This document shows positions 1 through 41,000 of a stretch of DNA of 64,000 nt, in pieces. Below the pieces are notes generated by a model. The model was not told where the DNA came from. It searched no databases and worked only from the letters and a program-made list of their open reading frames with translations. The position numbers and the translations under genes are program-made. The stretch is from Argopecten irradians. Its lineage: Eukaryota; Mollusca; Bivalvia; Pectinida; Pectinidae. The stretch lies in the NCBI RefSeq assembly GCF_041381155.1, contig NC_091135.1:64693067-64757066 (forward strand). The letters are read 5' to 3'. Numbering within the stretch: position 1 is the first letter of the stretch; each line of letters opens with the position of its first letter.

Positions 1-250
1 TGTAAGCATCTAGTTTTGTAAATATAATGTTTAATATAAAGAACAATTTCATTATCAATTCTATGATATATACAATTTTGATCTAGTTTCCCAAAAAGCA
101 TAGTTTCTTTATTAACAGCAAAAGGAATAAAAAGAATATCCAAAAGATTTTCAAAATTGGCTAAAAAGTTCTGAACTTCAGAGCATTCCCAAAAAAGATG
201 TATGATTGTCTCCCTTTCTAATACACATAGCATACAGTGAGGATTATTTC
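1..250 (-). pseudogene. LINE ORF2 C-terminal fragment (zinc-knuckle region)
   Basis: Read on the minus strand, an open frame gives HCMLCVLERETIIHLFWEC, a C-x2-C...H-x4-C pattern. It continues for about 55 residues of hydrophobic and basic sequence and runs off the left edge. This pattern is typical of the region after the reverse transcriptase in L1/Tx1-like LINEs. The same type of tail occurs at 51559-51798 and in the decayed LINE at 61.85-63.6 kb. It lies downstream of PSMG2 exon 5, in the same orientation, so it is probably an intronic insertion. No start or reverse-transcriptase core is visible here. Confidence 0.7.
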
Positions 251-252
251 CA

Positions 253-3200
253 TTGTATTACAATACCTCCAATAAGGACATAGCTATACCCTGTTCTATA
301 TTTGTCCCATTTTACCATTCCTCCAGTAAGGACATAGCCATACCCTGTTCTATATTTGTCCTGTCTCACCATTCCTCTTGTAAGGACTTAACAATACACT
401 GTTCTTTATTTGTCCCATTTTATCATTCCTCCAGTAACAACATAGCCATACCCTGTTCTATATTTGTCTTGTCTTACCATTCCTCCAGTAAGGACATAGC
501 CATACCCTGTTCTAAATTTGTCTTGTCTAACTATTCCTCCAGTAAGGACTTAGCTATACCATGTTCTATATTTCCATTGTATAACAATACCTCCAGTAAG
601 GACATAGCTATACCCTGTTCTATATTTGTCCCATCTTACCATTCCTCCAGTAAGGACATAGCCATACCCTGTTCTATATTTGTCCAGTCTTACCATTCCT
701 CTTGTAAGGACTTAACAATACACTGTTCTTTATTTGTCCCATCTTACCATTCCTCCAGTAACGACATAGCCATACCCTGTTCTATATTTGTCTTGTCTTA
801 CCATTCCTCCAGTAAGGACATAGCCATACCCTGTTCTATATTTGTCCTGTCTTACCATTCCTCCAGTAAGGACATAGCTATACCCTGTTCTATATTTGTC
901 TTGTCTCACCATTCCTCCAGTAAGGACATAGCTATATCCTGTTCTATATTTGTCTTGTCTTACCATTCCTCCAGTAAGGACATAGCCATACCCTGTTCTA
1001 TATTTGTCCTGTCTTACCATTCCTCCAGTAAGGACATAGCCATACCCTGTTCTATATTTGTCCTGTCTTACCATTCCTCCAGTAAGGACTTAGCTATATC
1101 CTGTTCTATATTTATCCCATCTTACCATTCTTCCAGTATTAAGGACATAGCTATAGCTTGTTCTATATTTGTCCCATCTTACCATTCCTCCAGTAAGAAC
1201 TTAGCTATACCCTGTTCTATATTTGCATTCAGTAAGAACATAGCTATATCCTGTTCAATATTTGCCCTGTCTTACCATTCCTCCAGTAAGGACATAGCTA
1301 TGCTCTGTTCTATATTTGTCCTGTCTTACCAATCCTCCAGTAAGGACTTAGCTATACCCTGTTCTATATTTGCATTCAGTAAGAACATAGCTATATCCTG
1401 TTCAATATTTGCCATGTCTTACCATTCCTCCAGTAAGGACATAGCTATGCTCTGTTCTATATTTGTCTTGTCTTACAATTCCTCCAGTAAGGACTTAGCA
1501 ATACCCTGTTCTATATTTGTCCTGTCTTACCAATCCTCCAGTAAGGACATAGCTATACCTTGTTCTATATTTGTCTTGTCTTACCATTCCTCCAGTAAGG
1601 ACATAGCCATACCCTGTTCTAAATTTGTCTTGTCTAACTATTCCTCCAGTAAGGACTTAGCTATACCATGTTCTATATTTCCATTGTATAACAATACCTC
1701 CAGTAAGGACATAGCTATACCCTGTTCTATATTTGTCCCATCTTACCATTCCTCCGGTAAGGACATAGCCATACCCTGTTCTATATTTGTCCAGTCTTAC
1801 CATTCCTCTTGTAAGGACTTAACAATACACTGTTCTTTATTTGTCCCATTTTATCATTCCTCCAGTAACGACATAGCCATACCCTGTTCTATATTTGTCT
1901 TGTCTTACCATTCCTCCAGTAAGGACATAGCCATACCCTGTTCTATATTTGTCCTGTCTTACCATTCCTCCAGTAAGGACATAGCTATACCCTGTTCTAT
2001 ATTTGTCTTGTCTCACCATTCCTCCAGTAAGGACATAGCTATATCCTGTTCTATATTTGTCTTGTCTTACCATTCCTCCAGTAAGGACATAGCCATACCC
2101 TGTTCTATATTTGTCCTGTCTTACCATTCCTCCAGTAAGGACTTAGCTATATCCTGTTCTATATTTATCCCATCTTACCATTCCTCCAGTATTAAGGACA
2201 TAGCTATAGCTTGGTCTATATTTGTCCCATCTAACCATTCCTCCAGTAAGGACTTAGCTATACCCTGTTCTATATTTGCATTCAGTAAGAACATAGCTAT
2301 ATCCTGTTCAATATTTGCCCTGTCTTACCATTCCTCCAGTAAGGACATAGCTATGCTCTGTTCTATATTTGTCCTGTCTTACCAATCCTCCAGTAAGGAC
2401 TTAGCTATACCCTGTTCTATATTTGCATTCAGTAAGAACATAGCTATATCCTGTTCAATATTTGCCATGTCTTACCATTCCTCCAGTAAGGACATAGCTA
2501 TGCTCTGTTCTATATTTGTCTTGTCTTACCATTCCTCCAGTAAGGACTTAGCAATACCCTGTTCTATATTTGTCCTGTCTTACCAATCCTCCAGTAAGGA
2601 CATAGCTATACCTTGTTCTATATTTGTCTTGTCTTACCATTCCTCCAGTAAGGACATAGCCATACCCTGTTCTAAATTTGTCTTGTCTAACTATTCCTCC
2701 AGTAAGGACTTAGCTATACCATGTTCTATATTTCCATTGTATAACAATACCTCCAGTAAGGACATAGCTATACCCTGTTCTATATTTGTCCCATCTTACC
2801 ATTCCTCCAGTAAGGACATAGCCATACCCTGTTCTATATTTGTCCAGTCTTACCATTCCTCTTGTAAGGACTTAACAATACACTGTTCTTTATTTGTCCC
2901 ATTTTATCATTCCTCCAGTAACGACATAGCCATACCCTGTTCTATATTTGTCTTGTCTTACCATTCCTCCAGTAAGGACATAGCCATACCCTGTTCTATA
3001 TTTGTCCTGTCTTACCATTCCTCCAGTAAGGACATAGCTATACCCTGTTCTATATTTGTCTTGTCTCACCATTCCTCCAGTAAGGACATAGCTATATCCT
3101 GTTCTATATTTGTCTTGTCTTACCATTCCTCCAGTAAGGACATAGCCATACCCTGTTCTATATTTGTCCTGTCTTACCATTCCTCCAGTAAGGACTTAGC

Positions 3201-4380
3201 TATATCCTGTTCTATATTTATCCCATCTTACCATTCCTCCAGTATTAAGGACATAGCTATAGCTTGTTCTATATTTGTCCCATCTTACCATTCCTCCAGT
3301 AAGGACTTAGCTATACCCTGTTCTATATTTGCATTCAGTAAGAACATAGCTATATCCTGTTCAATATTTGCCCTGTCTTACCATTCCTCCAGTAAGGACA
3401 TAGCTATGCTCTGTTCTATATTTGTCCTGTCTTACCAATCCTCCAGTAAGGACTTAGCTATACCCTGTTCTATATTTGCATTCAGTAAGAACATAGCTAT
3501 ATCCTGTTCAATATTTGCCATGTCTTACCATTCCTCCAGTAAGGACATAGCTATGCTCTGTTCTATATTTGTCTTGTCTTACCATTCCTCCAGTAAGGAC
3601 TTAGCAATACCCTGTTCTATATTTGTCCTGTCTTACCAATCCTCCAGTAAGGACATAGCTATACCTTGTTCTATACTTGTCCCATCTTACCATTCCTCCA
3701 GTAAGGACATAGCTATACTCTGTTCTATATTTGTCCTGTCTTATCATTCCTCTAATAAGGACTTAGCTATACCCTGTTCTATATTTGTCCTGTCTTACCA
3801 TTCCTTGAGTAAGGACATAGCCACACCCTGTTCTATATTTGTCCTGTCTTACCATTCCTCTTGTAAGGACTTAACAATACACTGTTCTTTATTTGTCCCA
3901 TTTTATCATTCCTCCAGTAACGACATAGCCATACCCTGTTCTATATTTGTCTTGTCTTACCATTCCTCCAGTAAGGACATAGCCATACCCTGTTCTATAT
4001 TTGTCCCATCTTACCATTCCTCCAGTAAGGACATAGCCATATCCTGTTCTATATTTGTCCCATCTTACCATTCCTCCAGTAAGGACTTAGCTATATTACC
4101 ATTCCTCCAGTAAGGACATAGCTATACCCTGTTCTATATTTGTCTTGTCTTACCATTCCTCCAGTAAAGACATAGCCATACCCTGTTCTATATTTGTCTT
4201 GTCTTACCATTCCTCCAGTAAGGACATAGCCATACCCTGTTCTATATTTGTCCTGTCTTACAATTCCTCCAGTAAGGACATAGCTATACCTTGTTCTATA
4301 TTTGTCCCATCTTACCATTCCTCCAATAAGGACATAGCTATGCTCTGTTCTATATTTGTCCTGTCTTACCATTCCTGCAG
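253..4380. repeat. 54-bp minisatellite with ~1,053-bp higher-order period, derived from PSMG2 exon 5/intron 5 junction
   Basis: About 76 tandem copies of a 54-bp unit, with a few shortened units. A marker variant (CCATTGTATAACAATACC) occurs near 574, 1681 and 2734, spacings of 1,107 and 1,053 bp. This shows that blocks of about 19.5 units were themselves duplicated. Because 54 is 18 codons, long frames stay open on both strands; the plus-strand frame at 253-4113 runs 1,286 codons but is repeat-driven and has no other sign of being a gene. On the minus strand each unit contains about 29 nt like the end of PSMG2 exon 5, then the donor GTAAGA, then about 25 nt ending in AACAG. The exon's own last 28 nt match the adjacent unit at 24 of 28 positions by eye. 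Confidence 0.93.
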
Positions 4381-4576
4381 TAAGGACTTTGCTATGCCCC
4401 CTCCTGGTATATAGATACAGTCAGGCTGTTTTAGTCCATTTTGCAGCTCCTCTGGGGTTGGTGCAGGAAAGGTATGTCTGCGTTCTAGTTCCATCCAGTT
4501 CAGTGGAGAAGTCCTAAACCTTTGGCCAGTCGTCAATTCCTCCATGGACTTAGAGGCCAGAAAACGGAGTTGGTCA
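4370..4576 (-). CDS. PSMG2: PSMG2 exon 5, donor at the edge of the minisatellite
   Basis: Acceptor TTTAAAG (weak pyrimidine tract), then 207 nt in phase. The exon contains SPLNWMELERR and CIYIPGGGIAKSLLQE, matching the LNW...IPGGG segment of PAC2. The best donor is GAATG|GTAAGA at 4370/4369. This donor is also the first of the minus-strand series repeated every 54 bp through the array. If it is skipped, the frame hits a TAA at once. Confidence 0.88.
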
Positions 4577-7500
4577 CTTTAAACAGATTGTGTGAAGTAT
4601 TAATCTACCAGTATATGACAACAATAAGATTAAAGTCTTCCACTTCACTAATAATCAGAAATCGTTTTAAAAACTTGCTTAATGGTATGATAATAGGGAA
4701 TCTATTGTTTATTCTCCACTAAACGTACAAATTCCATTATAAAGTGTCCTCTATCAATATCGAGACTTAAAAATCATGTTTGTATATAATATTTGTTTCA
4801 CACGTGAAATGTATTGATTGATTTTCGAAAATAATCAAGTGTGGTTCCTCGGACCAATTAAGATTTTTCTCATCATCACATTAAATATGGCTCTTGTGAC
4901 GAATTTCGACTGTCCTCTTAAGCTATAATGTATTTCATAAATCATCTGTGACTAAGTAAATGGGTAAATGTTACATTTTTTCCTATCATATCATAGATAT
5001 TAGCATACGCAATGAGAATAGACAAATATTGGCACACAAAATGCTTAGATATTTTTTTTATATCTCATTTTATCATTGTCACAAACTATGCTGGCAGATA
5101 CGTTACCAACAAATAAAATCATGTACACAATTGATATATTATCAAATGTCCACTTTTTTTCGTGATAATGAACTTTAATTTGTATACTTATTTTTACCTT
5201 TATGACATGGACACATCCATTCACAATTAAATGGACAGGTGCGATCTAATCTTGAAAATATACATGTTACGCAACGACATCAACAGATACGTTACTACTA
5301 TGTACTTGATAACATAAGATGCCACTTTCCCACAGAGATAAATTCACATCACAGTTTGAAAAGTATATTATACTAAGTGTTACAATGTTTGTGGTTTGGT
5401 CGACAATTCACACAGTGTCATTTAAATGATGAGAGGGGTTAGTGTCGGTCAGTACGTTACCGACAGATACGTTATGGAAAAATACCCATATCGACAGAAA
5501 TTCTCACGCTTGTCATAAAAACATTCGAAATTAGCTTAACCACGTGGCAAGTGTCCGAGAGTTTGTCAATAGTTTATTAGCGGGAAGATTCGTTGTGTTG
5601 CCAGTGTTGGGAAACTCGAAATAAGAAAAACCTTTACTTTCCTTTAGTATATACCTGTACATAGTAACATATATATACATTTCTGACAATAATCACATGA
5701 TTTCTAACACTAGTTAGCTGTATTGATTAAGCTATTAGGTATATAGTTAATTGTTAAATGTATAAATCACATATCAAAATAGTAACGTATCTGGTATAAA
5801 AGATCATGTATCTGTTTGATGAAAGGTGTACCGTTAACTCTAATATTTAGTGTAAAACTAATAATAAAAATAGTGTTACATCGACTAATTCAAATACATT
5901 TTATAGCCAGATATTGTTAGAATGTTTGTTAATCTAATGATACGGTAATGTGATATATAAACATGAAATAACATATCTGTTTATTTGGTAACGTACCTGT
6001 CATATTTGGTAATATATTTGTTCTTTTGTATGTAAACTCCAATTTGAGTGAACTTGGTTTCATTTGTTGCAATTTGTTTCAGACTAGAAATGGTCAGAAA
6101 ATTTAAGTTTAGGATTGTTTGTGGCAATCAAATATGATGGAGACTGATACGTTTCTCAGGTGAAGGAAGGCGAGGACAATGAGAATGATTTATTCCTTTC
6201 CTTCATGTCAAAAAACATCAACAAAGGACAAGTGAGGTTTCGTTGGCCAATAATATCAGACGAACTGTTTATCCTGAGTTATCACATCAACCTGTCAGCT
6301 GTGCGGGTCGTTTTTTCCCCAATTTAATGACAAGAACGCCGAAACCATCCGCAGTCAATGAGAATCGGTGTAGACAGATACGTTACCAATATGGTACAAA
6401 CATAATCATCCCTTCATCGACGCCACTTTTAATAGTTTTTATCTATCATTTGATAATTTCGATGTTGTAGTTTTGATTACAAGTTTTGAAGCAGATTCGT
6501 GTTATTGAATTTGTTTATTTTCTAATACTTCATAAAGACATATATCCCAAGAGAACAGATATGTTACCGCTGCGAATTTAGGCAAAAATCATCTAAAGTA
6601 CTGCAGAGAAGTGAAACCGCTGAAAAGTACATTTTCTTTGATGCATTTTGACGAATTAATGAAACAGAAAAACATAATAATCCTGTCAGATTTCTACAGT
6701 CATATATTAAGTATGTTGTAACATATACGTTACTGTTTAAAGCAGGATTTTAATGTCCTATACAGTAATTTGTGATTTATACAAATAAAAAATTACTGAC
6801 ATGTACTTATGCCGATATAAGTACAGTTTGATAATAAGGAAAAATATAGAAACAAAATACAAAAGTCCAAAACCAAAGCAAAAATTCAGTTAAAGTTTAT
6901 ATTTTGTGGCATTTCTAATGACAAACCTCAATTTAGTTCATTTTAACAAAGTCACGTATCTGTTATTTACCAAAATATGATGGTTGACTGTAACAATTAT
7001 AACTTTTCTATAAGTAAAGATAGGAGCCAGCCCTTATGGATTTAAAAAGTAGTGATATTTGCCAAACAAATGACAATACATAAGAACTTTGTTTTCAATT
7101 TTCATATTTTATGTTTTTATTTCTGAAAACATGCAAATTAGTGGAGAATGAACGTATAGATAATTTCATGCATAGAGTCTGCATTCTACATTACAATTGA
7201 TATTCAGTATTTGATTATTCATTTTTTTAGAATTTAAACATTGTAAATAATCATCTCTCTGCTAGATATGCTTTATCTTGATTTGAAAGCTTACCCCTGA
7301 AGCTGTATGTCCAGACGTTCCTCACTATGACTGCTGGTCAGAATAACAAGCTTAGCAAAGGACTTACTGGTGATCCACTCCTTCAGCCACTGTCTATACA
7401 GGCCCCTTTTACCCTGTGTTAGATAGACACACATAACAACATGTAACATAGTCAGAGTTTGTAAGACACAGTAAATGCCTTCACATTCTCAATCATAGGA

Positions 7501-10500
7501 AATCTCAACGGGACATGCTGCATACGTTTTTAAATGCTAAAGGAGAGACAAAGAAGGGAAGCAAAGGGAGAAAGAGGAATTAAAGGAAGGAAGGAGTTTG
7601 TGATTGTTATCTATGAGTGCTATTTATTGTTGCTGTAAAAATAGTAGAGCATAAATGATATTCATCATTTGAACAATAATTAGTGTTTAATTTTGTATAT
7701 ATATGCCTAATTAACACAAAAAAATAACATAAAATAATTTATTTCGCATTTGGTGCATGCGCAATCATTACTTCATTCTATATTGGATATAGTGCCACGG
7801 AATTTTTTCAGGATGCAATTAATTATTTTTCATATTTTTAACTTGAAGTAAAATTATAAGCTTAACTTTTCAATGGTGGAGCATCTTTAATATTAGACTT
7901 GTAATTCTGCAGCACTATGATGCTTTATGATACGTTCCAATACAAAATATAATAATTCTCCGTTCAGGTAACCTCAACATGACCCCTGGCCTAGAATCTG
8001 AAACATCTCGGGATGCACTAGTAGCCATTTATACATCCAAGAGAGCTGCAGTGGCGTAGGAAGATGAAACGTCATGGGGGGGCAAAGGTCCTCAATATTT
8101 TGTAACCCCAACCCCAACCCCCCCTTACGAGAGGAGATTAATTCAACTCCCAACCATATAATATATGCTTTATGTACATTTTTCATATATCACTAAATTT
8201 AATCCTTGTACACATTTATAGACAGTGGGGTCGCTAAAAGGAAATTAACAAAAACGCAAATTGGCCAAATTAGCGTGTGAGCGTCGAAGGCGCGAGATTT
8301 TTGTGTTTTGTTAGGGGTCTGAGGGTGACCCCCAGGATGAGTTTTATGTATTTTGATGATTTTGAGATCGCCCGAAAGTGCGAGATTTTGGTGTTTGGGG
8401 GGGTCGGGGGTCTCCCCCGGAAAAAAAATTACAATTTAGAATGGCTTAGATGAGTTTTACGATGCATTTTGATGAATTTGTGAGCGCCCAAAGGCGCGAG
8501 AATTTGGTGTTAGGGGGGTCCGGGGGTCTCCCCCGGGAAAAAAAATTACGATTTAGAATGGCTGAGATGAGTTTTACGATGCATTTTGATGAATTTGTGA
8601 GCGCCCAAAGGCACGAGAATTTGGTGTTAGGGGGGTCCGGGGGTCTGCCCCGGGAAAAAAAATTACGATTTAGAATGGCTGAGATGAGTTTTACGATAAA
8701 GTTTAATGATTATAAAGCGTTCTTAACATGGTAATTTTTCGATTTAAAGCTACCTGCATTTAGAAATGATAATTGTGTCGTCATAACACTACGCAACCCT
8801 TCTCGGCACATTGTTGTGTAACATAAAAAATGAATTAATTGTTTCGCTAAGACATATAAACAAATTGATCTTTTAAGAGACATTTTTCTAAATAGTACAT
8901 AGAATCCCTTGATGGACATTTTTAGTCTAGTTTTTGTGTATTGAATTTTCACTATTTAAGGTTTGACAATATGTGCTTGAACGTTTTAGGAAATGCGCTG
9001 CACAGCGGAAAATTTTCTAGAATGAAGTACGAAAAATGTGCAGGAGGACCCTTTTTTCTTTCAAATAAGCATTTTTAGAAAATTTCAGTCGGCGAAAATG
9101 GGGGGGCAAAAAGACATGTTTGCCCCCCCGTCCTCGGGAACGGGGGGGGCAGTTGCCCCCCCTGCCCCCCCCCCCGCTTCCTACGCCCCTGAGCTGTCCA
9201 CACTGAAGATTAAACTAGAAGAATATATATACAACACAACATGCTGATAAGCTAATCATAGGGGTCATGCTGAGATGACCTCATAAGGAGAGTTGCTAGA
9301 TCTTGAATTGAATCATAGAGCATCGAAGTGGAGCGAAATTACAAGTCTAACTGTAATTAGATTTTAATTGCATCTTACCCGCACAAAGGGAGCCCTTTGT
9401 TGAATCACCACCACCTTATGTTCAATACTTTCGTAGACTGAAAAAAAAACATGCATTAGTTTACACACCAGAACACATATTTTTTTATAATTTGTTTATA
9501 TATTTGAAACAGACCATCAGGTTACTGAAATATAGCATTAAGAAAACTCATTTGCCCTTTGAAATTTGACCTACCATCACAGCTTGTTACAAGTTTACAG
9601 TCATTAAAGTCTTCGTGAGCGAATGGATCATTGCCGACCAGAGGAAGGATGCTTTCATGATGAATATGTCCTACCCTTTCCATCCATAGTGTAGATATCA
9701 ACAGATCTACTGCTAGTTGTCCAACATTACCAACAGACACTGATGGCTGCAACATCAGAACACATTATTGTACAATAACTCAATCTAAAATCAATGAAAT
9801 AAATGTCATTACATGTGTTTGAGACTAAAACAAAAATTTGGTTAGCCTGTGTTGTGTTATATTAATATTTATAGTTAATATGAAGGTGGCCGAATTTACT
9901 GATTCAGACAAGTCTAAAACCCTGACAGCCAATCCCCAAAAAGATAAAACTAGTCCAAGGTAAAAATAAAAAGTCTCAAACAGATGCCTTATAAGTTGAC
10001 TATTAGTGTTGGATAAATGTCAAAACATTTAACCATGGGGCCAACTTGGCCCTTATCAAGGAAAACCTTAGAATTGTGTCACTTTCATATTTCTGACTAT
10101 TGCCTAGATAGTTTTAATGCATAATCTTTCCTGAGATATACTAATATGTAACAGGAGTCTAAAGAGAAGAGAAAATGAAGCAACCAGACCAGTGTTTGAA
10201 CCAGGACCCCTAAAAGTCTTTGCCTCTGAGGATACAACTACACAAAATTGCATGTTCTTATTTCGCCTGCTCCCAGCCAGATATGGGTTCAAACACTCTA
10301 CATGTAGTTGAATGATCTAATACCGATGATCGACTCATTCCTGTTCTGTTATCAAATGTTTGGCGACTGTCAATTGATAAATATCTCTGAGTCTCATCTT
10401 AGGCATGCATTAAATATATAGAGAATACATGGTTAGTATCTTACAATACAAGTTTTATTTCGGTGCGAGACTTAAAGGATTTGTGCAGTCAAAAATGATA

Positions 10501-13500: not shown

Positions 13501-15401
13501 AAAGGTTCCCATTAGCAAAAGGCACAACTAGAGCACTAGCCTAACATGTACAGAAAGTTTCGTGTAGCCAAGTTGAACGGTTTAGGAGTTATAGCCCGGA
13601 AACGATACTCGGACGGACGGACGGACGGACGCACGGACGGACAGAGCCCAAATCAATATCCCCCGCAAACGCGTTTCGCGGGGGATAATAAAAACACGCA
13701 TCATAGATATAATCGTGCTTATTTTTGTGATTTTACTCGTAAAAAGATAGTGTTACATTATACTGTTTTTTTTATTACACAGAAATTTACATAATATTCT
13801 ATCTAAATCTCAGTCCAGACTGATCCGAACATCATTTTGATATCGCTATCAAATTGGGCTGATTATCTAATCTAAAGTTAGATATATATTTGTTTGAATG
13901 TTTGAAATGGTGTAAATGGAATATTTTGAAACTGAAAATATCTACATCATAAAGCTAGAATAACCATTTACTCGAAAAACTCAAATTGTAGATCTAACGT
14001 ATACGTATACGTACATGTGCTGTATAGATGTATAGTACTAGGCTTACCTTGTGTAGCCGCGGACTACTCTGACATCACAAGACCACGTGACCGCCTAGCT
14101 CATTATCTCTGAACCCTTGTCGGCACTACCCGTAAATCACGACCAAAACCAACCGATAGCGCTAAAAGCTAGTCGATTCCTTGGGTGGGACTTGATTTTT
14201 CATTCATCCAAAGCAATATCCTGACGTATTATCAAAAAAAAATTTTGGCTGCACAAATCCTTTAAGAAAGGCGAGATGACACAGTATTTATATACCGTGT
14301 ATTCTGTTTATCCTACAACCATTATGACATTCAAAATGAAAGCAAATTGCCGGATATTTACTTGGTTCGCTCGAAGCGGGATGCTTCTTTGATGCGGAGG
14401 AAAAGAATCATTCCTAAAACTGAAGGATGTGGGAAGTATATGCACATTCGCATAAAGTACCAGTAATTCTATTCAGTGTGTAATATCACTGAAACAATAT
14501 AAAAATACTCCAAAAACATCAAAGAATTACTTTACAATACATGCCTTTCCTATAAGCCAAGAAGAATACAATAACTTACAAGATTTTCGATATCATAAAA
14601 ATCATGTCATTCCGGTAAATGTAATGTCGCTTTTTGGTGGGATTGAATGACGTTTCATTCAACGAAAGGTTAAAGTTCTGGGTCAAGTTACAAAAAGTTC
14701 TGTCATATGACTGTTGGCACAATACTCTCGCCCTGTTACATTTGGTGCCGTAGACCACTCCAAGCGAAAGCTATACGAGATTGAGAGGCTTTGTTGGAAA
14801 CAGAACCTGAGTTGGTCTTTGTTCGGAGGCGGACACGTTTGAAAGGGGGTAGTGGTGTAGCAGGTTTTAATTGTACATAGTGATACAGTCGCCTTCTAGC
14901 TTCATACTAGGGGAATTTCCCTTTGGCTCAGTCGGTAGAGCGGCGGACCAATAAGTTCAGTGTTGCGGGTTCGAGCCCTGCTGCCGGCACACTACTCTCG
15001 CCCTGTTACATTTGGTGCCGTAGACCACTCCAAGCGAAAGCTAAACAAGATTGCATGAGAGCTAGGCTTCGTTGGAAACAGAACCTGGGTTGGTCTGTGT
15101 TCGGGGGCGAACACGTTAGAAAGGGGGAGTAGTGTATACGTAGATACACGTAGAAATTATGACAAGTTCAAATTGTTTTTTTTATCAGTTTCTTGTTTTA
15201 AAACATGAAATAAACATAGGGAGTTATTCTGAATCCTAAACACAATAACTGAACTGGATGATGTTCCCGTTAGTCAGTTAGTCTGTTAGTCCCGAGGAAA
15301 ACATAGATCACACAAATAGTGCAAATGATCGATCTTACCACAATCAGCGTGTAGTCTTGCCATTCCCGTAGTTTTCTTTTGGGGTCCGATTGTATAAACA
15401 T
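4370..15401 (-). CDS. PSMG2: Proteasome assembly chaperone 2 (PAC2), five exons, 3' end beyond window
   Basis: PAC2 pairs with PAC1 (PSMG1) and helps assemble the 20S proteasome alpha ring in the cytosol and nucleus. Spliced exons 15401-15339, 9746-9575, 9437-9379, 7413-7295 and 4576-4370 join in frame (phases 0, 1, 0, 2) and give about 206 residues. Recognised blocks compared with animal PAC2 are PSVSVGNVGQLAVDLLIST (exon 2), the central VILTSSHSEERLDIQL (exon 4) and CIYIPGGGIAKSL (exon 5). The vertebrate protein is about 264 residues, so roughly 60-70 C-terminal residues should lie left of position 1. Introns are swollen by transposons and by the 54-bp array. All splice sites are GT-AG, so nothing seen here says the gene is broken. 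The identification rests on remembered family sequence. Confidence 0.9.
4577..7294. repeat. PSMG2 intron 4 with dispersed CAGATACGTTACC-like 13-mers
   Basis: This is an AT-rich intron with no coding signal. The exact 13-mer CAGATACGTTACC occurs at 5095 and 6375. Near copies lie at 5284, 5451, 5464, 6556 and 6723 on the plus strand, and on the minus strand at 5782 (GTAACGTATCTG), 5988 (GGTAACGTACCTG) and 6953. Weaker ones lie near 5664 and 6142. Sequence between copies is not obviously repeated. Spacings are often 165-205 bp. Confidence 0.65.
7295..7413 (-). CDS. PSMG2: PSMG2 exon 4
   Basis: Acceptor ACACAG and donor GTAAGC bound 119 nt. The exon encodes a Trp-rich helix followed by AKLVILTSSHSEERLDIQL, matching the conserved V-L-S/T-S-S-H-S core of PAC2. 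It ends in phase 2. Confidence 0.92.
8049..9191. mobile_element. TIR DNA element (CAGTGGCGTAGGAAG / CTTCCTACGCCCCTG) with 5-bp TSD
   Basis: The ends are inverted: CAGTGGCGTAGGAAG at 8049 and CTTCCTACGCCCCTG ending at 9191. They are flanked by AGCTG on both sides (8044-8048, 9192-9196), a likely target duplication. Inside are G/C homopolymer tracts near both ends and a tandem array. No transposase frame was seen, so it is non-autonomous. It sits in PSMG2 intron 3. The superfamily is not assigned. Confidence 0.75.
8230..8700. repeat. ~117-bp tandem repeat inside the TIR element
   Basis: The start GATGAGTTTTACGATGC recurs at 8449, 8567 and 8683 (periods 118 and 116), with a more diverged copy from about 8230. 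Each unit carries GAGCGCCCAAAGGCGCGAG and a GGGGGTC/CCCCCGG palindromic stretch followed by an A run. An open frame of 94 codons at 8450-8734 is only a product of the repeat. Confidence 0.8.
9379..9437 (-). CDS. PSMG2: PSMG2 exon 3 (59 nt)
   Basis: A small exon with a strong polypyrimidine tract and CAG acceptor and a GTAAGA donor. With the carried-over G it encodes VYESIEHKVVVIQQRAPFVR. This fits between exons 2 and 4 in phase and in family alignment. Confidence 0.88.
9575..9746 (-). CDS. PSMG2: PSMG2 exon 2
   Basis: Acceptor TTGCAG, then 172 nt opening in phase 0 with PSVSVGNVGQLAVDLLIST, the most conserved block of PAC2, and LVGNDPF. The donor is GTAGGT. It ends one base into a codon. Confidence 0.92.
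12289..13690 (+). mobile_element. Helentron-associated (pearl/HINE-like) element, 172-bp repeats
   Basis: Architecture in order: a 5' end near 12289 containing ATTATCCCCCGCG; six full copies plus a part copy of a 172-bp unit; a (GGAC)n tract at 13609-13642; and a terminal hairpin at 13657-13688 whose arms are TATCCCCCGC and GCGGGGGATA. The 5' segment repeats one hairpin arm. This layout matches the non-autonomous Helentron derivatives (pearl/CvA type) known from bivalves. It has no coding capacity. Confidence 0.8.
12516..13605. repeat. 172-bp tandem repeat, about 6.3 copies
   Basis: TGTACAGAAAGTTT begins units at 12516, 12688, 12860, 13031, 13203, 13375 and 13547 (periods 171-172). Copies differ by a few substitutions (for example GTTTTTGAG versus GTTTTCGAG), and alternate copies look most alike, hinting at dimer-wise spread. 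Confidence 0.93.
14730..15135 (+). mobile_element. tRNA-derived SINE, tail duplicated
   Basis: A tRNA-like head at about 14915-14990 has an A box (TGGCTCAGTCGG), a D-arm (GCTCAGTCGGTAGAGC) and a B box (GGTTCGAGCCC) with a pairing T-stem, but no matching acceptor stem. It is therefore a SINE head and not a tRNA gene. The body that follows (14990-15130, starting ACTCTCGCCCTGTTACATTT) is also present upstream at about 14735-14855. This gives a body-head-body arrangement. Confidence 0.75.
15339..15401 (-). CDS. PSMG2: PSMG2 exon 1 (start codon, 21 codons)
   Basis: Minus-strand ATG at 15401-15399 encodes MFIQSDPKRKLREWQDYTLI plus V, ending exactly at the donor GTAAGA. It resembles the PAC2 N-terminus, which begins MFV and ends in an aromatic-TLL motif. 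It ends in phase 0, which fits exon 2. It is separated from exon 2 by a 5.6-kb intron full of mobile elements. Confidence 0.85.
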
Positions 15402-18927: not shown

Positions 18928-21900
18928 ACACAATAACTACCAACAACTATATACAATAACTACCAACAACTGTATACAATAACTACCAACAACTATATAC
19001 AATAACTACCAACAACTATACCAACAATTATATACAATAACTACCAACAACTATATACAATAACTACCAACAACTATATACAATAACTACCAACAACTAT
19101 ATACAATAACTACCAACAACTATATACAATAACTACCAACAACTATATACAATAACTACCAACAACTATATACAATAACCACCAACAACTATATACAATA
19201 ACTACCAACAACTATACCAATAACTATATACAATAACTACCAACAACTATATACAATAACTACCAACAACTATATACAATAACTACCAACAACTATACAA
19301 CAACAACTATATACAATAACTACCAACAACTCTATACAATTAACTACCAACAACTATACAATAACTACCAACAACTATACACAATAACTACCAACAACTA
19401 TACACATTACTTACCAATAACTATATATACAATAACTACCAACAACTATATACAATAACTACCAACAACTATACCAACAACTATATACAATAACTACCAA
19501 CAACTATATACAATAACTACCAACAACTATATACAATAATACCAACAACTATATACAATAACTACCAACAACATACAATACACCAACAACTTACAATAAC
19601 TACCAACAACTATATACAATAACTACCAACAACTATACAATAACTACCAACAACTATACAATAACTGTATACAATAACTACCATCAACTATATACAATAA
19701 CTACCAACAACTATACCAACAACTATATACAATGACTACCAACAACTATATACAATAACTACCAACAACTATATACAATAACTACCAACAACTATATACA
19801 ATAATCCAACAACTATATACAATAACTACCAACAACTATATACAATAACTACCAACAACTATATATACATAACTACAACAACTATATACAATAACTACCA
19901 ACAACTATATACAATAACTACCAAACTATATACAATAACTACCACAACTATATACAATAACTACCAACAACTATATACAATAACTACCAACAACTATATA
20001 CAATAACTACAACAATATACAACTATATACAATAACTACCAACAACTATATACAATAACTACCAACAACTTATACATAACTACCAACAACTATATACAAT
20101 AACTACCAACAACTATATACAATAACTACCAACAACTATATACAATAACTACAACAACAACTATATACAATAACTACCAACAACTATAACTACAACAACT
20201 ATATACAATAACTACCAACAACTATATACAATAACTACCAACAACTATATACAATAACTACCAACAACTATATACAATAACTACCAACAACTATATACAA
20301 TAACTACCAACAACTATACCAACAACTATATACAATAACTACCAACAACTATATACAATAACTACCAACAACTATACCAACAACTATATACAATAACTAC
20401 CAACAACTATATACAATAACTACCAACAACTATATACAATAACTACCAACAACTATATACAATAACTACCAACAACTATACCAACAACTATATACAATAA
20501 CTACCAACAACTATATACAATAACTACCAACAACTAATACAATAACTACCAACAACTATATACAATAACTACCAACAACTATATACAATAACTACCAACA
20601 ACTATATACAATAACTACAACCAACAACTATATACAATAACTACCAACAACTATATATACAATAACTACCAACAACTATATACAATAACTACCAACAACT
20701 ATATACAATAACTACCAACAACTATATACAATAACTACCAACAACTATATACAATAACTACCAACAACTATATACAATAACTACCAACAACTATATACAA
20801 TAACTACCAACAACTATATACAATAACTACCAACAACTATATACAATAACTACCAACAACTATATACAATAACTACCAACAACTATAACAACTAACTACA
20901 ACAACTACCAAAACTTATACAATAACTACCAACAACTATATACAATAACTACCAACAACTATATACAATAACTACCAACAACTATATACAATAACTACCA
21001 ACAACTATATACAATAACTACCAACAACTTATACAATAACTACCAACAACTATATACAATAACTACCAACAACTATATACAATAACTACCAACAACTATA
21101 TACAATAACTACCAACAACATATACAATAACTACAACAACTATAAACAAATACAATAACTACCAACAACTATATACAATAACTACCAACAACTAACTAAC
21201 TACCAACAACTTATACAATAACTACCACAACTATATACAATAACTACCAACAACTATATACAATAACTACCAACAACTATATACAATAACTACCAACAAC
21301 TATATACAATAACTACCAACAACTATAACAATAACTACCAACAACTATAACAATAACTACAATATACAATAACTACCAACAATAACTACTACCAACAACT
21401 TATACAATAACTACCAACAACTATATACAATAACTACCACAACTATAACTATACATACTACACAACTATATACAATACTACCAACAACTATATACAATAA
21501 CTACCAACAACTATATACAATAACTACCAACAACTATATACAATAACTACCAACAACTATATACAATAACTACCAACAACATATACAATACTACCAACAA
21601 CTATATACAATAACTACCAACAACATAACCAACAACTTATAAATAACTACCAACAACTATATACAATAACTACCAACAACATACCAAAACTATATACAAT
21701 AACTACCAACAACTATATACAATAACTACCAACAACTATATACAATAACTACCAACAAACAACTATATACAATAACTACCAACAACTATATACAATAACT
21801 ACCAACAACTATATACAATAACTACCAACAACTATATACAATAACTACAAACTACCAACAACTATATACAATAACTACCAACAACTCTATACAATAACTA

Positions 21901-24900
21901 CCAACAACTATATACAATAACTACCAACAACTATATACAATAACTACCAACAACTATATACAATAACTACCAACAACTTATACAATAACTACCAACAACT
22001 ACCAACAACTAAACATATACTACAAAACTATAACTACCAACAACTATATACAATAACTACCAACAACTATATACAATAACTACCAACAACTATATACAAT
22101 AACTACCAACAACTATATACAATAACTACCAACAACTATATACAATAACTACCAACAACTATATACAATAACTACCAACAACTATATACAATAACTACCA
22201 ACAACTATATACAATAACTACCAACAACTATATACAATAACTTACCAACAACTATATACAATAACTACCAACAACTATATACAATAACTACCAACAACTA
22301 TATACAATAACTACCAACAACTATATACAATAACTAACTAACCAACAACTATATACAATAACTACCAACAATATATACAATAACTACCAACAACTATATA
22401 CAATAACTACCAACAACTATATACAATAACTACCAACAACTATATACAATAACTACCAACAACTATATACCAATAACTTAACAATAACTATACAAAACTA
22501 CCAACAACTATATACAATAACTACCAACAACCTACCAACAACTATATACAATGACTACCAACAACTATATACAATAACTACCAACAACTATATACAATAA
22601 CTTCCAACAACTATATACAATAACTACCAACAACTATATACAATAACTACCAACAACTATATACAATAACTACCAACAACTATATACAATAACTACCAAC
22701 AACTATACCAATAAATCTATACAATAACTACCATCAACTATATACAATAACTACCAACAACTATACCAACAACTATATACAATAACTACCAACAACTATA
22801 TACAATAACTACCAACAACTATATACAATAACTACCAACAACTATATACAATAACTACCAACAACTATATACAATAACTACCAACAACTATATACAATAC
22901 TACAATAATACTACCAACAACTATACAACAACTTTTACAATAACTACCAACAACTATATACAATAACTACCAACAACTATATACAATAACTACAACTATA
23001 TACAATACTACAACAACTAATACTACTACCAACAACTATATACAATAACTACCAACAACTATATACAATAACTACCAACAACTATATACAATAACTACCA
23101 ACAACTATATACAATAACTACCAACAACTATATACAATAACTACCAACAACTATATACAATAACTACCAACAACTATATACAATAACTACCAACAACTAT
23201 ATACAATAACTACCAACAACTATATACAATAACTACCAACAACTATATACAATAACTACCAACAACTATATACAATAACTACCAACAATATATACAATAA
23301 CTACCAACAACTATATACAATAACTACCAACAACTATATACAATAACTACCAACAACTATATACAATAACTACCAACAACTATATACAATAACTACCAAC
23401 AACTATATACAATAACTACCAACAACTATATACAATAACTACCAACAACTATATACAATAACTACCAACAACTATACAATACAATAACTACCAATAACTG
23501 TATACAATAACTACCAACAACTATATACAATAACTACCAACAACTATACCAACAACTATATACAATAACTACCAACAACTATATACAATAACTACCAACA
23601 ACTATACCAACAACTATATACAATAACTACCAACAACTATATACAATAACTACCAACAACTATATACAATAACTACCAACAACTATATACAATAACTACC
23701 AACAACTATATACAATAATAATATACCAACAACTATATACAATAACTACCAACAACTATATACAATAACTACCAACAACTATATACAATAACTACCAACA
23801 ACTATATACAATAACTACCAACAACTATATACAATAACTACCAACAACTATATACAATAACTACCAACAACTATATACAATAACTACCAACAACTATATA
23901 CAATAACTACCAACAACTATATACAATAACTACCAACAACTATACCAACAACTATATACAATAACTACCAACAACTATATACAATAACTACCAACAACTA
24001 TATACAATAACTACCAACAACTATATACAATAACTACCAACAACTATATACAATAACTACCAACAACTATATACAATAACTACCAACAACTATATACAAT
24101 AACTACCAACAACTATATACAATAACTACCAACAACTATATACAATAACTACCAACAACTACACCAACAACTATACAATAACTACCAACAACTATATACA
24201 ATAACTACCAACAACTATACCAATAACTGTATACAATAACTACCATCAACTATATACAATAACTACCAACAACTATACCAACAACTATATACAATGACTA
24301 CCAACAACTATATACAATAACTACCAACAACTATATACAATAACTACCAACAACTATATACAATAACTACCAACAACTATATACAATAACTACCAACAAC
24401 TATATACAATAACTACCAACAACTATATACAATAACTACCAACAACTATACCAATAACTGTATACAATAACTACCATCAACTATATACAATAACTACCAA
24501 CAACTATACCAACAACTATATACAATGACTACCAACAACTATATACAATAACTACCAACAACTATATACAATAACTACCAACAAATACAATAACTACCAA
24601 CAACTATATACAATAACTACCAACAACTATATACAATAACTACCAACAACTATATACAATAACTACCAACAACTATATACAATAACTACCAACAACTATA
24701 CCAATAACTGTATACAATAACTACCATCAACTATATACAATAACTACCAACAACTATACCAACAACTATATACAATGACTACCAACAACTATATACAATA
24801 ACTACCAACAACTATATACAATAACTACCAACAACTATAAACAATAACTTCCAACAACTATATACAATAACTACCAACAACTATATACAATAACTACCAA

Positions 24901-25300
24901 CAACTATATACAATAACTACCAACAACTATATACAATAACTACCAACAACTATATACAATTACTACCAACAACTATATACAATAACTACCAACAACTATA
25001 TACAATAACTACCAACAACTATATACAATAACTACCAACAATATATACAATAACTACCAACAACTATATACAATTACTACCAACAACTATATACAATAAC
25101 TACCAACAACTATATACAATAACTACCAACAACTATATACAATAACTACCAACAACTATATACAATAACTACCAACAACTATATACAATAACTACCAACA
25201 ATATATACAATAACTACCAACAACTATATACAATAACTACCAACAACTATATACAATAACTACCAACAACTATATACAATAACTACCAACAATATATAAT
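18928..25300. repeat. 23-bp satellite array, ~6.4 kb
   Basis: About 270-280 copies of TATATACAATAACTACCAACAAC. Variants include shortened units (ACTATACCAACAAC), TGTATACAATAACTACCATC units and ACAATGACTACC units. The last three recur together near 19660, 22730, 24220, 24460 and 24700, marking higher-order blocks. Single-base deletions cluster at about 19550-22500; these may be real decay or long-read errors. Confidence 0.97.
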
Positions 25301-35048: not shown

Positions 35049-38000
35049 TAGTGATCAGTAATTCCGTGACTATACACATACCTTACTTATAGTGATCAGT
35101 AATTCCGTGACTATACACATACCTTACTTATAGTGATCATTAATTCCGTGACTATACACATACCTTACTTATAGTGATCATTAATTCCGTGACTATACAC
35201 ATACCTTACTTATAGTGATCATTAATTCCGTGACTATACACATACCTTACTTATAGTGATCAGTAATTCCGTGAGTAATTCCGTGACTATACACATACCT
35301 TACTTATAGTGATCAGTAATTCCGTGACTATACACATACCTTACTTATAGTGATCATTTAATTCCGTGACTATACACATACCTTACTTATAGTGATCAGT
35401 AATTCCGTGACTATACACATACCTTACTTATAGTGATCATTAATTCCGTGACTATACACATACCTTACTTATAGTGATCATTAATTCCGTGACTATACAC
35501 ATACCTTACTTATAGTGATCAGTAATTCCGTGACTATACACATACCTTACTTATAGTGATCATTAATTCCGTGACTATACACATACCTTACTTATAGTGA
35601 TCATTAATTCCGTGACTATACACATACCTTACTTATAGTGATCAGTAATTCCGTGACTATACACATACCTTACTTATAGTGATCAGTAATTCCGTGACTA
35701 TACACATACCTTACTTATAGTGATCATTAATTCCGTGACTATACACATACCTTACCTTACATTCCGTGACTATACACATACCTTACTTATAGTGATCAGT
35801 AATTCCGTGACTATACACATACCTTACTTATAGTGATCAGTAATTCCGTGACTATACACATACCTTACTTATAGTGATCAGTAATTCCGTGACTATACAC
35901 ATACCTTACTTATAGTGATCAGTAATTCCGTGACTATACACATACCTTACTTATAGTGATCAGTAATTCCGTGACTATACACATACCTTACTTATAGTGA
36001 TCATTAATTCCGTGACTATACACATACCTTACTTATAGTGATCATTAATTCCGTGACTATACACATACCTTACTTATAGTGATCAGTAATTCCGTGACTA
36101 TACACATACCTTACTTATAGTGATCATTAATTCCGTGACTATACACATACCTTACTTATAGTGATCAGTAATTCCGTGACTATACACATACCTTACTTGT
36201 AGTGATCATTAATTCCGTGACTATACACATACCTTACTTATAGTGATCAGTAATTCCGTGACTATACACATACCTTACTTATAGTGATCATTAATTCCGT
36301 GACTATACACATACCTTACTTATAGTGATCAGTAATTCCGTGACTATACACATACCTTACTTATAGTGATCATTAATTCCGTGACTATACACATACCTTA
36401 CTTATAGTGATCAGTAATTCCGTGACTATACACATACCTTACTTATAGTGATCAGTAATTCCGTGACTATACACATACCTTACTTATAGTGATCAGTAAT
36501 TCCGTGACTATACACATACCTTACTTATAGTGATCAGTAATTCCGTGACTATACACATACCTTACTTATAGTGATCAGTAATTCCGTGACTATACACATA
36601 CCTTACTTATATAGTGATCAGTAATTCCGTGACTATACACATACCTTACTTATAGTGATCATCGTAATTCCGTGACTATACACACATACCTTACTTATAG
36701 TGATCAGTAATTCCGTGACTATACACATACCTTACTTATAGTGATCAGTAATTCCGTGACTATACACATACCTTACTTATAGTGATCATAATTCCGTGAC
36801 TATACACATACCTTACTTATAGTGATCAGTAATTCCGTGACTATACACATACCTTACTTATAGTGATCATTAATTCCGTGACTATACACATACCTTACTT
36901 ATAGTGATCATTAATTCCGTGACTATACACATACCTTACTTATAGTGATCAGTAATTCCGTGACTATACACATACCTTACTTATAGTGATCAGTAATTCC
37001 GTGACTATACACATACCTTACTTATAGTGATCATTAATTCCGTGACTATACACATACCTTACTTATAGTGATCAGTAATTCCGTGACTATACACATACCT
37101 TACTTATAGTGATCAGTAATTCCGTGACTATACACATACCTTACTTATAGTGATCAGTAATTCCGTGACTATACACATACCTTACTTATAGTGATCAGTA
37201 ATTCCGTGACTATACACATACCTTACTTATAGTGATCAGTAATTCCGTGACTATACACATACCTTACTTATAGTGATCATTAATTCCGTGACTATACACA
37301 TACCTTACTTATAGTGATCAGTAATTCCGTGACTATACACATACCTTACTTATAGTGATCAGTAATTCCGTGACTATACACATACCTTACTTATAGTGAT
37401 CAGTAATTCCGTGACTATACACATACCTTACTTATAGTGATCATTAATTCCGTGACTATAACAAACACCTTACTTATAGTGATCAGTAATTCCGTGACTA
37501 TACACATACCTTACTTATAGTGATCAGTAATTCCGTGACTATACACATACCTTACTTATAGTGATCATTAATTCCGTGACTATACACATACCTTACTTAT
37601 AGTGATCAGTAATTCCGTGACTATACACATACCTTACTTATAGTGATCAGTAATTCCGTGACTATACACATACCTTACTTATAGTGATCATTAATTCCGT
37701 GACTATACACATACATTACTTATAGTGGTCATTAATTCCGTGACTATACACATACCTTATAGTGATCATTAATTCCGTGACTATACACATACCTTACTTA
37801 TAGTGATCAGTAATTCCGTGACTATACACATACCTTACTTATAGTGATCAGTAATTCCGTGACTATACACATACCTTACTTATAGTGATCAGTAATTCCG
37901 TGACTATACACATACCTTACTTATAGTGATCATTAATTCCGTGACTATACACATACCTTACTTATAGTGATCAGTAATTCCGTACACTACCTTACATCAT

Positions 38001-41000
38001 AATTCCGTACATACCTTACTTATAGTGATCAGTAATTCCGTGACTATACACATACCTTACTTATAGTGATCAGTAATTCCGTGACTATACACATACCTTA
38101 CTTATAGTGATCAGTAATTCCGTGACTATACACATACCTTACTTATAGTGATCATTAATTCCGTGACTATACACATACCTTACTTATAGTGATCAGTAAT
38201 TCCGTGACTATACACATACCTTACTTATAGTGATCAGTAATTCCGTGACTATACACATACCTTACTTATAGTGATCATTAATTCCGTGACTATACACATA
38301 CCTTACTTATAGTGATCAGTAATTCCGTGACTATACACATACCTTACTTATAGTGATCATTAATTCCGTGACTATACACATACCTTACTTATAGTGATCA
38401 TTAATTCCGTGACTATACACATACCTTACTTATAGTGATCATTAATTCCGTGACTATACACATACCTTACTTATAGTGATCATTAATTCCGTGACTATAC
38501 ACATACCTTACTTACCTTACTTATAGTGATCAGTAAATCCGTGACTATACACATACCTTACTTATAGTGATCATTAATTCCGTGACTATACACATACCTT
38601 ACTTATAGTGATCAGTAATTCCGTGACTATACACATACCTTACTTATAGTGATCAGTAATTCCGTGACTATACACATACCTTACTTATAGTATATCGTGA
38701 CTTCATACCTTACTTAATGATCATAATTCCGTGACTATACACATACCTTACTTATAGTGATCATTAATTCCGTGACTATACACATACCTTACTTATAGTG
38801 ATCAGTAATTCCGTGACTATACACATACCTTACTTAATCGTGCATACACATCCTTACTTATAGTGATCATAATTCCGTGACTATACACATACCTTACTTA
38901 TAGTGATCAGTAATTCCGTGACTATACACATACCTTACTTATAGTGATCATTAATTCCGTGACTATACACATACCTTACTTATAGTGATCATTAATTCCG
39001 TGACTATACACATACCTTACTTATAGTGATCATTAATTCCGTGACTATACACATACCTTACTTATAGTGATCAGTAATTCCGTGACTATACACATACCTT
39101 ACTTATAGTGATCAGTAATTCCGTGACTATACACATACCTTACTTATAGTGATCATTAATTCCGTGACTATACACATACCTTACTTATAGTGATCAGTAA
39201 TTCCGTGACTATACACATACCTTACTTATAGTGATCATTAATTCCGTGACTATACACATACCTTACTTATAGTGATCATTAATTCCGTGACTATACACAT
39301 ACCTTACTTATAGTGATCATTAATTCCGTGACTATACACATACCTTACTTATAGTGATCATTAATTCCGTGACTATACACATACCTTACTTATAGTGATC
39401 ATTAATTCCGTGACTATACACATACCTTACTTATAGTGATCAGTAATTCCGTGACTATACACATACCTTACTTATAGTGATCAGTAATTCCGTGACTATA
39501 CACATACCTTACTTATAGTGATCATTAATTCCGTGACTATACACATACCTTACTTATAGTGATCATTAATTCCGTGACTATACACATACCTTACTTATAG
39601 TATAGTGATCAGTAATTCCGTGACTATACACATACCTTACTTATAGTGATCATTAATTCCGTGACTATACACATACCTTACTTATAGTGATCAGTAATTC
39701 CGTGACTATACACATACCTTACTTATAGTGATCATTAATTCCGTGACTATACACATACCTTACTTATAGTGATCAGTAATTCCGTGACTATACACATACC
39801 TTACTTATAGTGATCATTAATTCCGTGACTATACACATACCTTACTTATAGTGATCATTAATTCCGTGACTATACACATACCTTACTTATAGTGATCATA
39901 ATTCCGTACTATACACATACCTTACTTATAGTGATCAGTAATTCCGTGACTATACACATACCTTACTTATAGTGATCAGTAATTCCGTGACTATACACAT
40001 ACCTTACTTATAGTGATCAGTAATTCCGTGACTATACACATACCTTACTTATAGTGATCAGTAATTCCGTGACTATACACATACCTTACTTATAGTGATC
40101 ATTAATTCCGTGACTATACACATACCTTACTTATAGTGATCAGTAATTCCGTGACTATACACATACCTTACTTATAGTGATCAGTAATTCCGTGACTATA
40201 CACATACCTTACTTATAGTGATCATTAATTCCGTGACTATACACATACCTTACTTATAGTGATCAGTAATTCCGTGACTATACACATACCTTACTTATAG
40301 TGGTCATTAATTCCGTGACTATACACATACCTTACTTATAGTGATCAGTAATTCCGTGACTATACACATACCTTACTTATAGTGATCATTAATTCCGTGA
40401 CTATACACATACCTTACTTATAGTGATCAGTAATTCCGTGACTATACACATACCTTACTTATAGTGATCAGTAATTCCGTGACTATACACATACCTTACT
40501 TATAGTGATCAGTAATTCCGTGACTATACACATACCTTACTTATAGTGATCATTAATTCCGTGACTATACACATACCTTACTTATAGTGATCATTAATTC
40601 CGTGACTATACACATACCTTACATTCCTTGACTATACACATACCTTACTTATAGTGATAAGTAATTCCGCGTGACTATACACATACCTTACTTATAGTGA
40701 TCATTAATTCCGTGACTATACACATACCTTACTTATAGTGATCAGTAATTCCGTGACTATACACATACCTTACTTATAGTGATCATTAATTCCGTGACTA
40801 TACACATACCTTACTTATAGTGATCATTAATTCCGTGACTATACACATACCTTACTTATAGTGATCATTAATTCCGTGACTATACACATACCTTACTTAT
40901 AGTGATCATTAATTCCGTGACTATACACATACCTTACTTATAGTGATCAGTAATTCCGTGACTATACACATACCTTACTTATAGTGATAAGTAATTCCGT

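Follow-up and report, generated by a model that had tools for sequence, protein, structure and literature searches.

The closest described systems are the lancelet 'mirages', minisatellite-like tandem duplications of an exon-intron boundary in Adh3 and in the globin genes BflGb6 and BflGb9 (PMC3087553), to which troponin C was added as a further lancelet mirage together with similar repeats in PGBD5 (PMC3902484); the account of these and the other published systems given here follows the accessible parts of the reports. Regular splicing was reported to be undisturbed by the lancelet mirages (PMC3087553, PMC3902484). Their units measure 10-160 bp, and the copy numbers given are 6 and 3 for two BflGb6 haplotypes, a triplication for PGBD5 and a duplicate for BflGb9. 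We describe an array of 115 units of ~54 bp in intron 5 of PSMG2 in the scallop Argopecten irradians. It resembles the lancelet mirages in that a boundary is duplicated in tandem and splice signals are found in many units, and BflGb9 in that the 3' boundary of an exon is duplicated. It differs from them in its higher-order copies, in being split by a LINE, in its mollusc host and in a codon present in the units but lost from the exon.

Human IFI6 contains a minisatellite with a 12-bp unit. This minisatellite reportedly provides multiple donors, according to the title of Turri et al. 1995. Two of its downstream units are used as donors, which gives three mRNA species (PMC4526556). Minisatellite units offer alternative donors in both IFI6 and PSMG2, but the IFI6 units are used, whereas use of the PSMG2 units is predicted to truncate the protein. 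Human genes in segmental duplications contain exon-intron-boundary tandem repeats, mostly minisatellites of on average four 30-bp units, which may cause novel introns by cryptic splice sites (PMC2812944). Such novel introns are not apparent at PSMG2. When an intron is gained by tandem genomic duplication, a splice signal lies within the duplicated part. Tandem duplication is the starting event of that process (PMC4974935) and likewise comes first in the PSMG2 array. Compared at the protein level, PSMG2 as joined here can be aligned end to end, over 282 residues, with its Ylistrum and Mizuhopecten orthologues, and shows no sign of an added coding intron or exon. A variable 27-bp intron minisatellite of abalone is not described as exon-derived in the accessible text (PMC6905558), and the accessible parts of reports on earthworm intron minisatellites (PMC12783039) and on DDX3Y (PMC3039753) offered no closer precedent. 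A bivalve report of such an array was not found among titles and abstract openings, a coverage outside which most subscription journals lie.

The window, i.e., the whole 64,000-nt stretch of DNA analysed (contig positions 64,693,067 to 64,757,066), contains five of the seven exons of a minus-strand PSMG2 gene (proteasome assembly chaperone 2); the last two lie to its left and were given negative window coordinates (Table 1). All intron borders are GT/AG and the 849-nt CDS is intact. The joined protein of 282 amino acids is identical to the Ylistrum balloti protein at 87.6% and to that of Mizuhopecten yessoensis at 84.8% of positions, both over 282 residues, and to that of Pecten maximus at 86.9% over 260 residues. 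It matches the Pfam family PAC2 (E 5.3e-18), and its matches in the PDB are chains that bear the name proteasome assembly chaperone 2 (E 5.6e-55).

Table 1. Features of the PSMG2 locus in window coordinates; a slash marks the exon-intron boundary.
Feature	Position	Strand	Basis or location
PSMG2 exon 1 (coding part)	15339..15401	-	exon map
PSMG2 exon 2	9575..9746	-	exon map
PSMG2 exon 3	9379..9437	-	exon map
PSMG2 exon 4	7295..7413	-	exon map
PSMG2 exon 5, 207 nt; its final 28 nt (4370-4397) make up the exonic part of 'unit zero'	4370..4576	-	exon map, intact CDS
Authentic 5' splice site of intron 5, ATG/GTAAGA	4364..4369	-	joining exon 5 to exon 6 at -13702 restores the conserved reading
Array block C: 78 units, most of them of 54 bp; GT in 67, GTAAG in 53	253..4369	-	TRF, unit table
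Three 1053-bp higher-order copies inside block C, 94-99% identical	560..3718	-	autocorrelation peak at lag 1053
1290-aa antisense open frame over the array, period 18 aa	241..4113	+	ORF list
Fragment of LINE origin next to the far end of block C	1..252	-	blastn against the A-to-B insertion
Array block B: 28 units	~-1183 to -2645		intron 5, outside the window
Array block A: 9 units	~-12524 to -13004		intron 5, outside the window
PSMG2 exon 6, left of the window	-13702..-13819	-	exon map
PSMG2 exon 7, left of the window	-14261..-14371	-	exon map

Tandem repeats of 54 bp were found by TRF at 254-4095 and 4096-4399. The first donor of the array is located exactly 54 nt beyond the donor of exon 5 itself, and the repeat continues in exact register down to 253. 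This confirms the sequence-only reading, which had placed a 54-bp array next to exon 5. Units were accepted with up to 9 mismatches in a 24-nt core, a cut-off on which all unit counts depend. From 118 candidates, the exon itself and two weak units outside the blocks (-332 and -14447) were dropped, and the remaining 115 form three blocks, all within intron 5. The donor GT is present in 102 of these 115 and GTAAG in 82, while six units of block C are truncated and lack the donor. The same reading had assigned a donor to every unit and counted about 76 of them, both of which are too high when set against block C in Table 1. The spacing between neighbouring units is exactly 54 bp in 94 of 114 cases; the others are 39 bp (n=7), 57 bp (n=7), 31 bp (n=2), 93 bp (n=2) and the two gaps between blocks.

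The assembly was searched with a 28-base query, allowing up to 3 mismatches, in 846 Mb on 1508 contigs; repeat counts from this search are lower bounds. At least 89 matches were obtained, all of them in PSMG2 intron 5, at the exon edge or on contig C255, compared to none for the reversed control. Contig C255 looks like a poor-quality haplotig of the PSMG2 locus; it carries block A and part of block B, and its sequence is poor near its end and degrades inside block B. Within the limits of this search, the 54-bp repeat was not found elsewhere in the assembly, and a dispersed repeat is unsupported by it. Widespread occurrence away from PSMG2, named beforehand as a finding that would speak against an origin from the gene, was not encountered in this search. 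An assembly artefact, by which repeats were collapsed or multiplied, might be suspected from higher-order copies of up to 99% identity and from the decay of the haplotig within block B. It is nevertheless highly improbable, since 60, 8 and 63 differences were counted between the three higher-order copies of 1053 bp, both the contig of the window and C255 carry parts of blocks A and B, and the relation between unit and exon is independent of copy number.

The unit combines a copy of ~28 nt from the 3' edge of exon 5 with a copy of the 26 nt that open intron 5. At this edge, the unit consensus agrees with the gene in 24 of its 28 exonic and 25 of its 26 intronic bases, whereas the donor-side edges of exons 1, 2, 3, 4 and 6 reach only 7-11 of 28 exonic and 8-13 of 26 intronic bases. 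When both strands of the 84-kb locus were scanned outside the array, the best background identity in 155,124 placements was 18/28. Of the units, 100 of 115 show 21-25 identical bases to the 28-nt exon edge, and the other 15 show 12-18. Chance is excluded as the source of the match between exon and unit. A count of 24/28 for the unit nearest to the exon, as given in the sequence-only reading, was obtained again on recomputing. The units most similar to the exon in sequence (50/54; at 3436, 2383 and 1330) are not those beside it but sit in the higher-order copies. Upstream of position -28, a resemblance of the unit to the exon (ATATA..CAGG) gave p = 0.11 in local alignment, and homology of this part is not claimed. 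Accordingly characterized, the array is a tandem, minisatellite-like repeat of 115 units which copy an authentic, adjoining exon-intron boundary of their own gene, and splice signals are kept in many of them (GT in 102/115).

Homology links the exon edge to the array, and similarity alone gives no direction, so that an older minisatellite could also have produced or overwritten the 3' edge of exon 5. This reverse direction is exceedingly improbable. The motif PGGGIAKSLLxE at the edge is conserved among scallops, and forms of it can be recognised in oysters, mussels and the PDB chain, which indicates an ancient coding edge, and the repeat was not found elsewhere in its own assembly by the search above. 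The exon edge encodes PGGGIAKSLLQE here, compared to PGGGIAKSLLEE in Ylistrum and Mizuhopecten and PGGGIAKSLMEE in Pecten; as the protein of the edge is conserved, copying very probably proceeded from exon to array.

A single codon points the same way and provides the strongest evidence. The penultimate full codon of exon 5 is CAG (Gln) in this gene. At the corresponding position of the array, GAG (Glu) is found in 104 of the 115 units, AAT in 7, AAG in 3 and GAA in 1. Glu is also the residue in all three other scallop proteins (Ylistrum, Pecten and Mizuhopecten) and, among the top 25 protein matches, in 10 of the 13 motif-bearing bivalves given by name, the exceptions being Mytilus and Solemya with Lys and Dreissena with Asn. 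A wider tally was taken from the best 120 of 312 protein matches, of which 15 without the motif were dropped; the 105 motif-bearing animal proteins have T (42), D (21), E (17), N (7), Q (4), K (4) or others. The residue varies widely across animals, hence the argument from Glu rests on scallops and other bivalves. Four units read GIAKSLLEEW followed by a stop codon, of which GIAKSLLEE is identical to the Ylistrum and Mizuhopecten proteins. For the Lys codon, which is AAG in the exon, 72 of the 115 units have ATG and 35 have AAG. Since most units keep the Glu that the exon lost, the edge of exon 5 is very probably the source of the array and was copied before its own change: the array would have been seeded from an exon 5 still coding for Glu, and exon 5 would then have changed to Gln. 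At the protein level, the comparison with orthologues proposed earlier shows that the orthologous exon fits the unit better than the scallop's own exon does at one residue. Both this Glu codon and the match to the edge support the origin suggested by the sequence-only reading, namely tandem duplication of the 3' edge of exon 5 together with its 5' splice site.

Between blocks A and B lie ~9.8 kb of sequence which contains a LINE. The sequence TTTTTGTCCCATCTT is present at the right edge of block A as well as at the left edge of block B; a run of T is located beside one edge of the insertion and an RVT_1 frame near the other. From these edges, we strongly infer that a LINE, oriented in sense with the gene, entered an already existing array unit. 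Using blastn, positions 1-132 and 126-249 of the window were found to match two separate parts of the A-to-B insertion with 97.7% and 96.8% identity, and 153 bp adjoining block B also match part of it with ~97%. The sequence between blocks B and C is therefore partly the same LINE, with 153 bp beside B and 132 + 124 bp beside C, matching three parts of the insertion. The possibility that the array itself is part of the LINE was rejected, as the repeat shares its origin with the conserved coding edge of an exon; in addition, the array sequence found at both LINE edges resembles a target-site duplication. Elsewhere in the window, a 41-bp array (35049-46729) carries a donor-like AAG/GTATGT on the minus strand, and no exon was seen at either of its edges, which were read by eye only.

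The long open frame antisense to the array was considered as a gene and rejected on present evidence. A repeat period which is a multiple of three keeps a frame open, and the 1290-aa frame is a by-product of 54 = 3 x 18. A 164-aa piece of it gave 2 weak matches, the best with an E of 0.55 (7991 candidates scored; proteins of similar length).

For the donors, pairing with U1 was predicted using the ViennaRNA duplex program and the U1 sequence. The donor of exon 5 has a predicted pairing energy of -8.0 kcal/mol. In 78 of the 115 units, GT is present and predicted pairing is as good or slightly better (-8.0 kcal/mol or lower), thus pairing alone cannot pick the first donor. Only the exon's own donor completes a 207-nt exon with the upstream acceptor, which, by exon definition, would favour its normal use. 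Splicing at this first donor is also what the conserved protein suggests, and the gene is intact when this donor is joined to exon 6. If a later donor were used now and then, exon 5 would grow by multiples of ~54 nt and meet an immediate TAA, and the truncated mRNA would be prone to decay. Exon extension, as proposed in the sequence-only reading, would lead to an in-frame stop at codon 208 with each of the 102 GT donors (LLQEW followed by TAA; 207 residues).

A 29-nt micro-exon had also been proposed, with AACAG as a weak acceptor 29 nt upstream of each donor. The position of the motif holds for most donors: of the 102 GT units, 77 have AACAG and 78 have CAG at precisely this distance. As an acceptor it is hardly credible, for the 16 nt before AACAG in the consensus unit contain 25% pyrimidine, compared to 53-76% at the six real PSMG2 acceptors (17-nt measure, -20 to -4). 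Another AG (unit column 21, 62% pyrimidine) is located only a few nt before the donor. Among 79 modelled inclusions (78 of 29 nt and one of 34), 47 end at 206-208 residues and 32 run out of frame to 223 residues. Without a credible acceptor, and with modelled inclusion either stopping or shifting the frame, the micro-exon idea is weak and was rejected. For recursive splicing, also raised in the sequence-only reading, the analysis yielded no pertinent observation.

Upkeep of the donors was assessed in the 98 of 115 units which are regular (17 dropped), representing 58 distinct sequences. GTAAG is intact in 78% of these 58 and ranks 14th among 54 five-base windows, and divergence of the donor nine-mer ranks 19th of 54. 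The donors appear neither clearly maintained nor purged, which suggests near-neutrality, although the test is weak because units copy each other. As drift in the donor columns is similar to that in the other columns of the unit, the array is read as a tolerated bystander, with splicing at the first donor.

The array could instead be a working regulator of splicing, in which leaky donor use yields exon-5-extended, early-stopping and decaying mRNAs and array length tunes the level of PSMG2. Predicted U1 pairing of 78/115 units as good as that of the real donor, the same early stop from all 102 GT donors and the use of repeat units as donors in IFI6 (PMC4526556) are in line with such a role. We consider it unlikely, given donor columns without special upkeep, the fact that each later donor would lengthen exon 5 by ~54 nt, and lancelet mirages which, in the accessible parts of the reports, do not disturb splicing (PMC3087553, PMC3902484).

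Alternatively, the array might be a landing platform for U1 snRNP which aids recognition of exon 5 or shields the 18-kb, LINE-bearing intron from premature polyadenylation. Downstream of exon 5, such a platform would offer 78 GT sites predicted to be U1-competent. The acceptor of this exon, TTTAAAG/TG, is the only AAG among the six of PSMG2. Intron 5 has a length of 18,071 bp with 24 AATAAA matches on the gene strand. Suppression of polyadenylation by U1 and correction of exon skipping by U1 particles bound downstream of a donor have both been described (PMC3826338, PMC4822034). The pyrimidine fraction at the exon-5 acceptor is, however, not low (0.65, the third highest of six), 6 of the 24 AATAAA matches are inside the array blocks themselves, and the growth of intron and LINE could be more recent than the array. 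A protective or assisting role of this kind is therefore decidedly improbable. In a more specific form, quite unlikely as well, ~80 donor copies derived from the gene itself would hold U1 near exon 5, with its unusual acceptor, and across the 18-kb, LINE-bearing intron, and their number would set PSMG2 output; if true, this would be a self-derived, tunable splicing rheostat whose copy number could be changed by unequal exchange.

Taken as a whole, the array is likely an exon-intron-boundary minisatellite, i.e., a mirage of the 5'-splice-site kind, which arose from PSMG2 exon 5 and persists as a tolerated bystander. Within this reading, we infer with less support that the array is tolerated and close to neutral; the bystander role would follow from the intact gene, the neutral-looking drift of the donors and, by analogy, the lancelet precedent.

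The PSMG2 array belongs to a known type of repeat and is set apart by its size, its host and its fossil codon. The type is now placed in a mollusc, with far more units than in the lancelet cases cited, as far as the accessible parts of those reports give copy numbers. With dozens of donors of equal predicted U1 pairing behind one exon, the locus is a natural experiment in splice-site choice. The array further suggests that repeats of this type can preserve an earlier state of a coding exon like a fossil, here a codon which has since changed in the gene.

Next to block B of the 54-bp minisatellite in intron 5 of PSMG2 lies the reverse-transcriptase frame of a LINE, which is oriented in the sense of PSMG2. 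The spacer between blocks B and C (-1162 to 252; negative coordinates lie left of the window on the same contig) unites pieces that are about 7.4 kb apart within the insertion between blocks A and B. Because of this distance, the spacer looks like an internally deleted copy of that insertion which also carries a further insertion. In C255, a contig read as a haplotig of the PSMG2 locus, the sequence (stretches L012 and L013) is noisy and homopolymer-rich toward the contig end, within block B and past it; this degraded end has the appearance of unpolished long-read sequence.

Features in and around the PSMG2 locus (window coordinates, except for L010, the stretch of the main contig with block B)
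Feature	Coordinates	Strand	Remarks
PSMG2 exon 5 acceptor	4577-4586		TTTAAAG|TG
LINE reverse-transcriptase frame	L010:5984-7300	-	RVT_1, E 1.7e-12; inside PSMG2 intron 5
Open frame, 443 aa	59585-60916	+	Neurotransmitter-gated ion channel match
Tandem array, 41-bp unit	35049-46729		283 copies, 11.7 kb
Tandem array, 23-bp unit	18930-25298		276 copies, 6.4 kb; upstream of PSMG2 exon 1
Open frame, 1290 aa	241-4113	+	Antisense across the 54-bp PSMG2 array

The AAG acceptor of exon 5 is the sole non-CAG among the six acceptors of the gene. On its minus strand, the array with the 41-bp unit carries a donor-like AAG|GTATGT; both array ends were inspected by eye and an exon edge was recognised at neither. 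The 443-aa frame was matched by Neur_chan_LBD (E 5.8e-38) and Neur_chan_memb (E 1.2e-10). For a 164-aa piece of the antisense frame, the top match had an E-value of 0.55. Gene predictors are likely to be misled by this frame.
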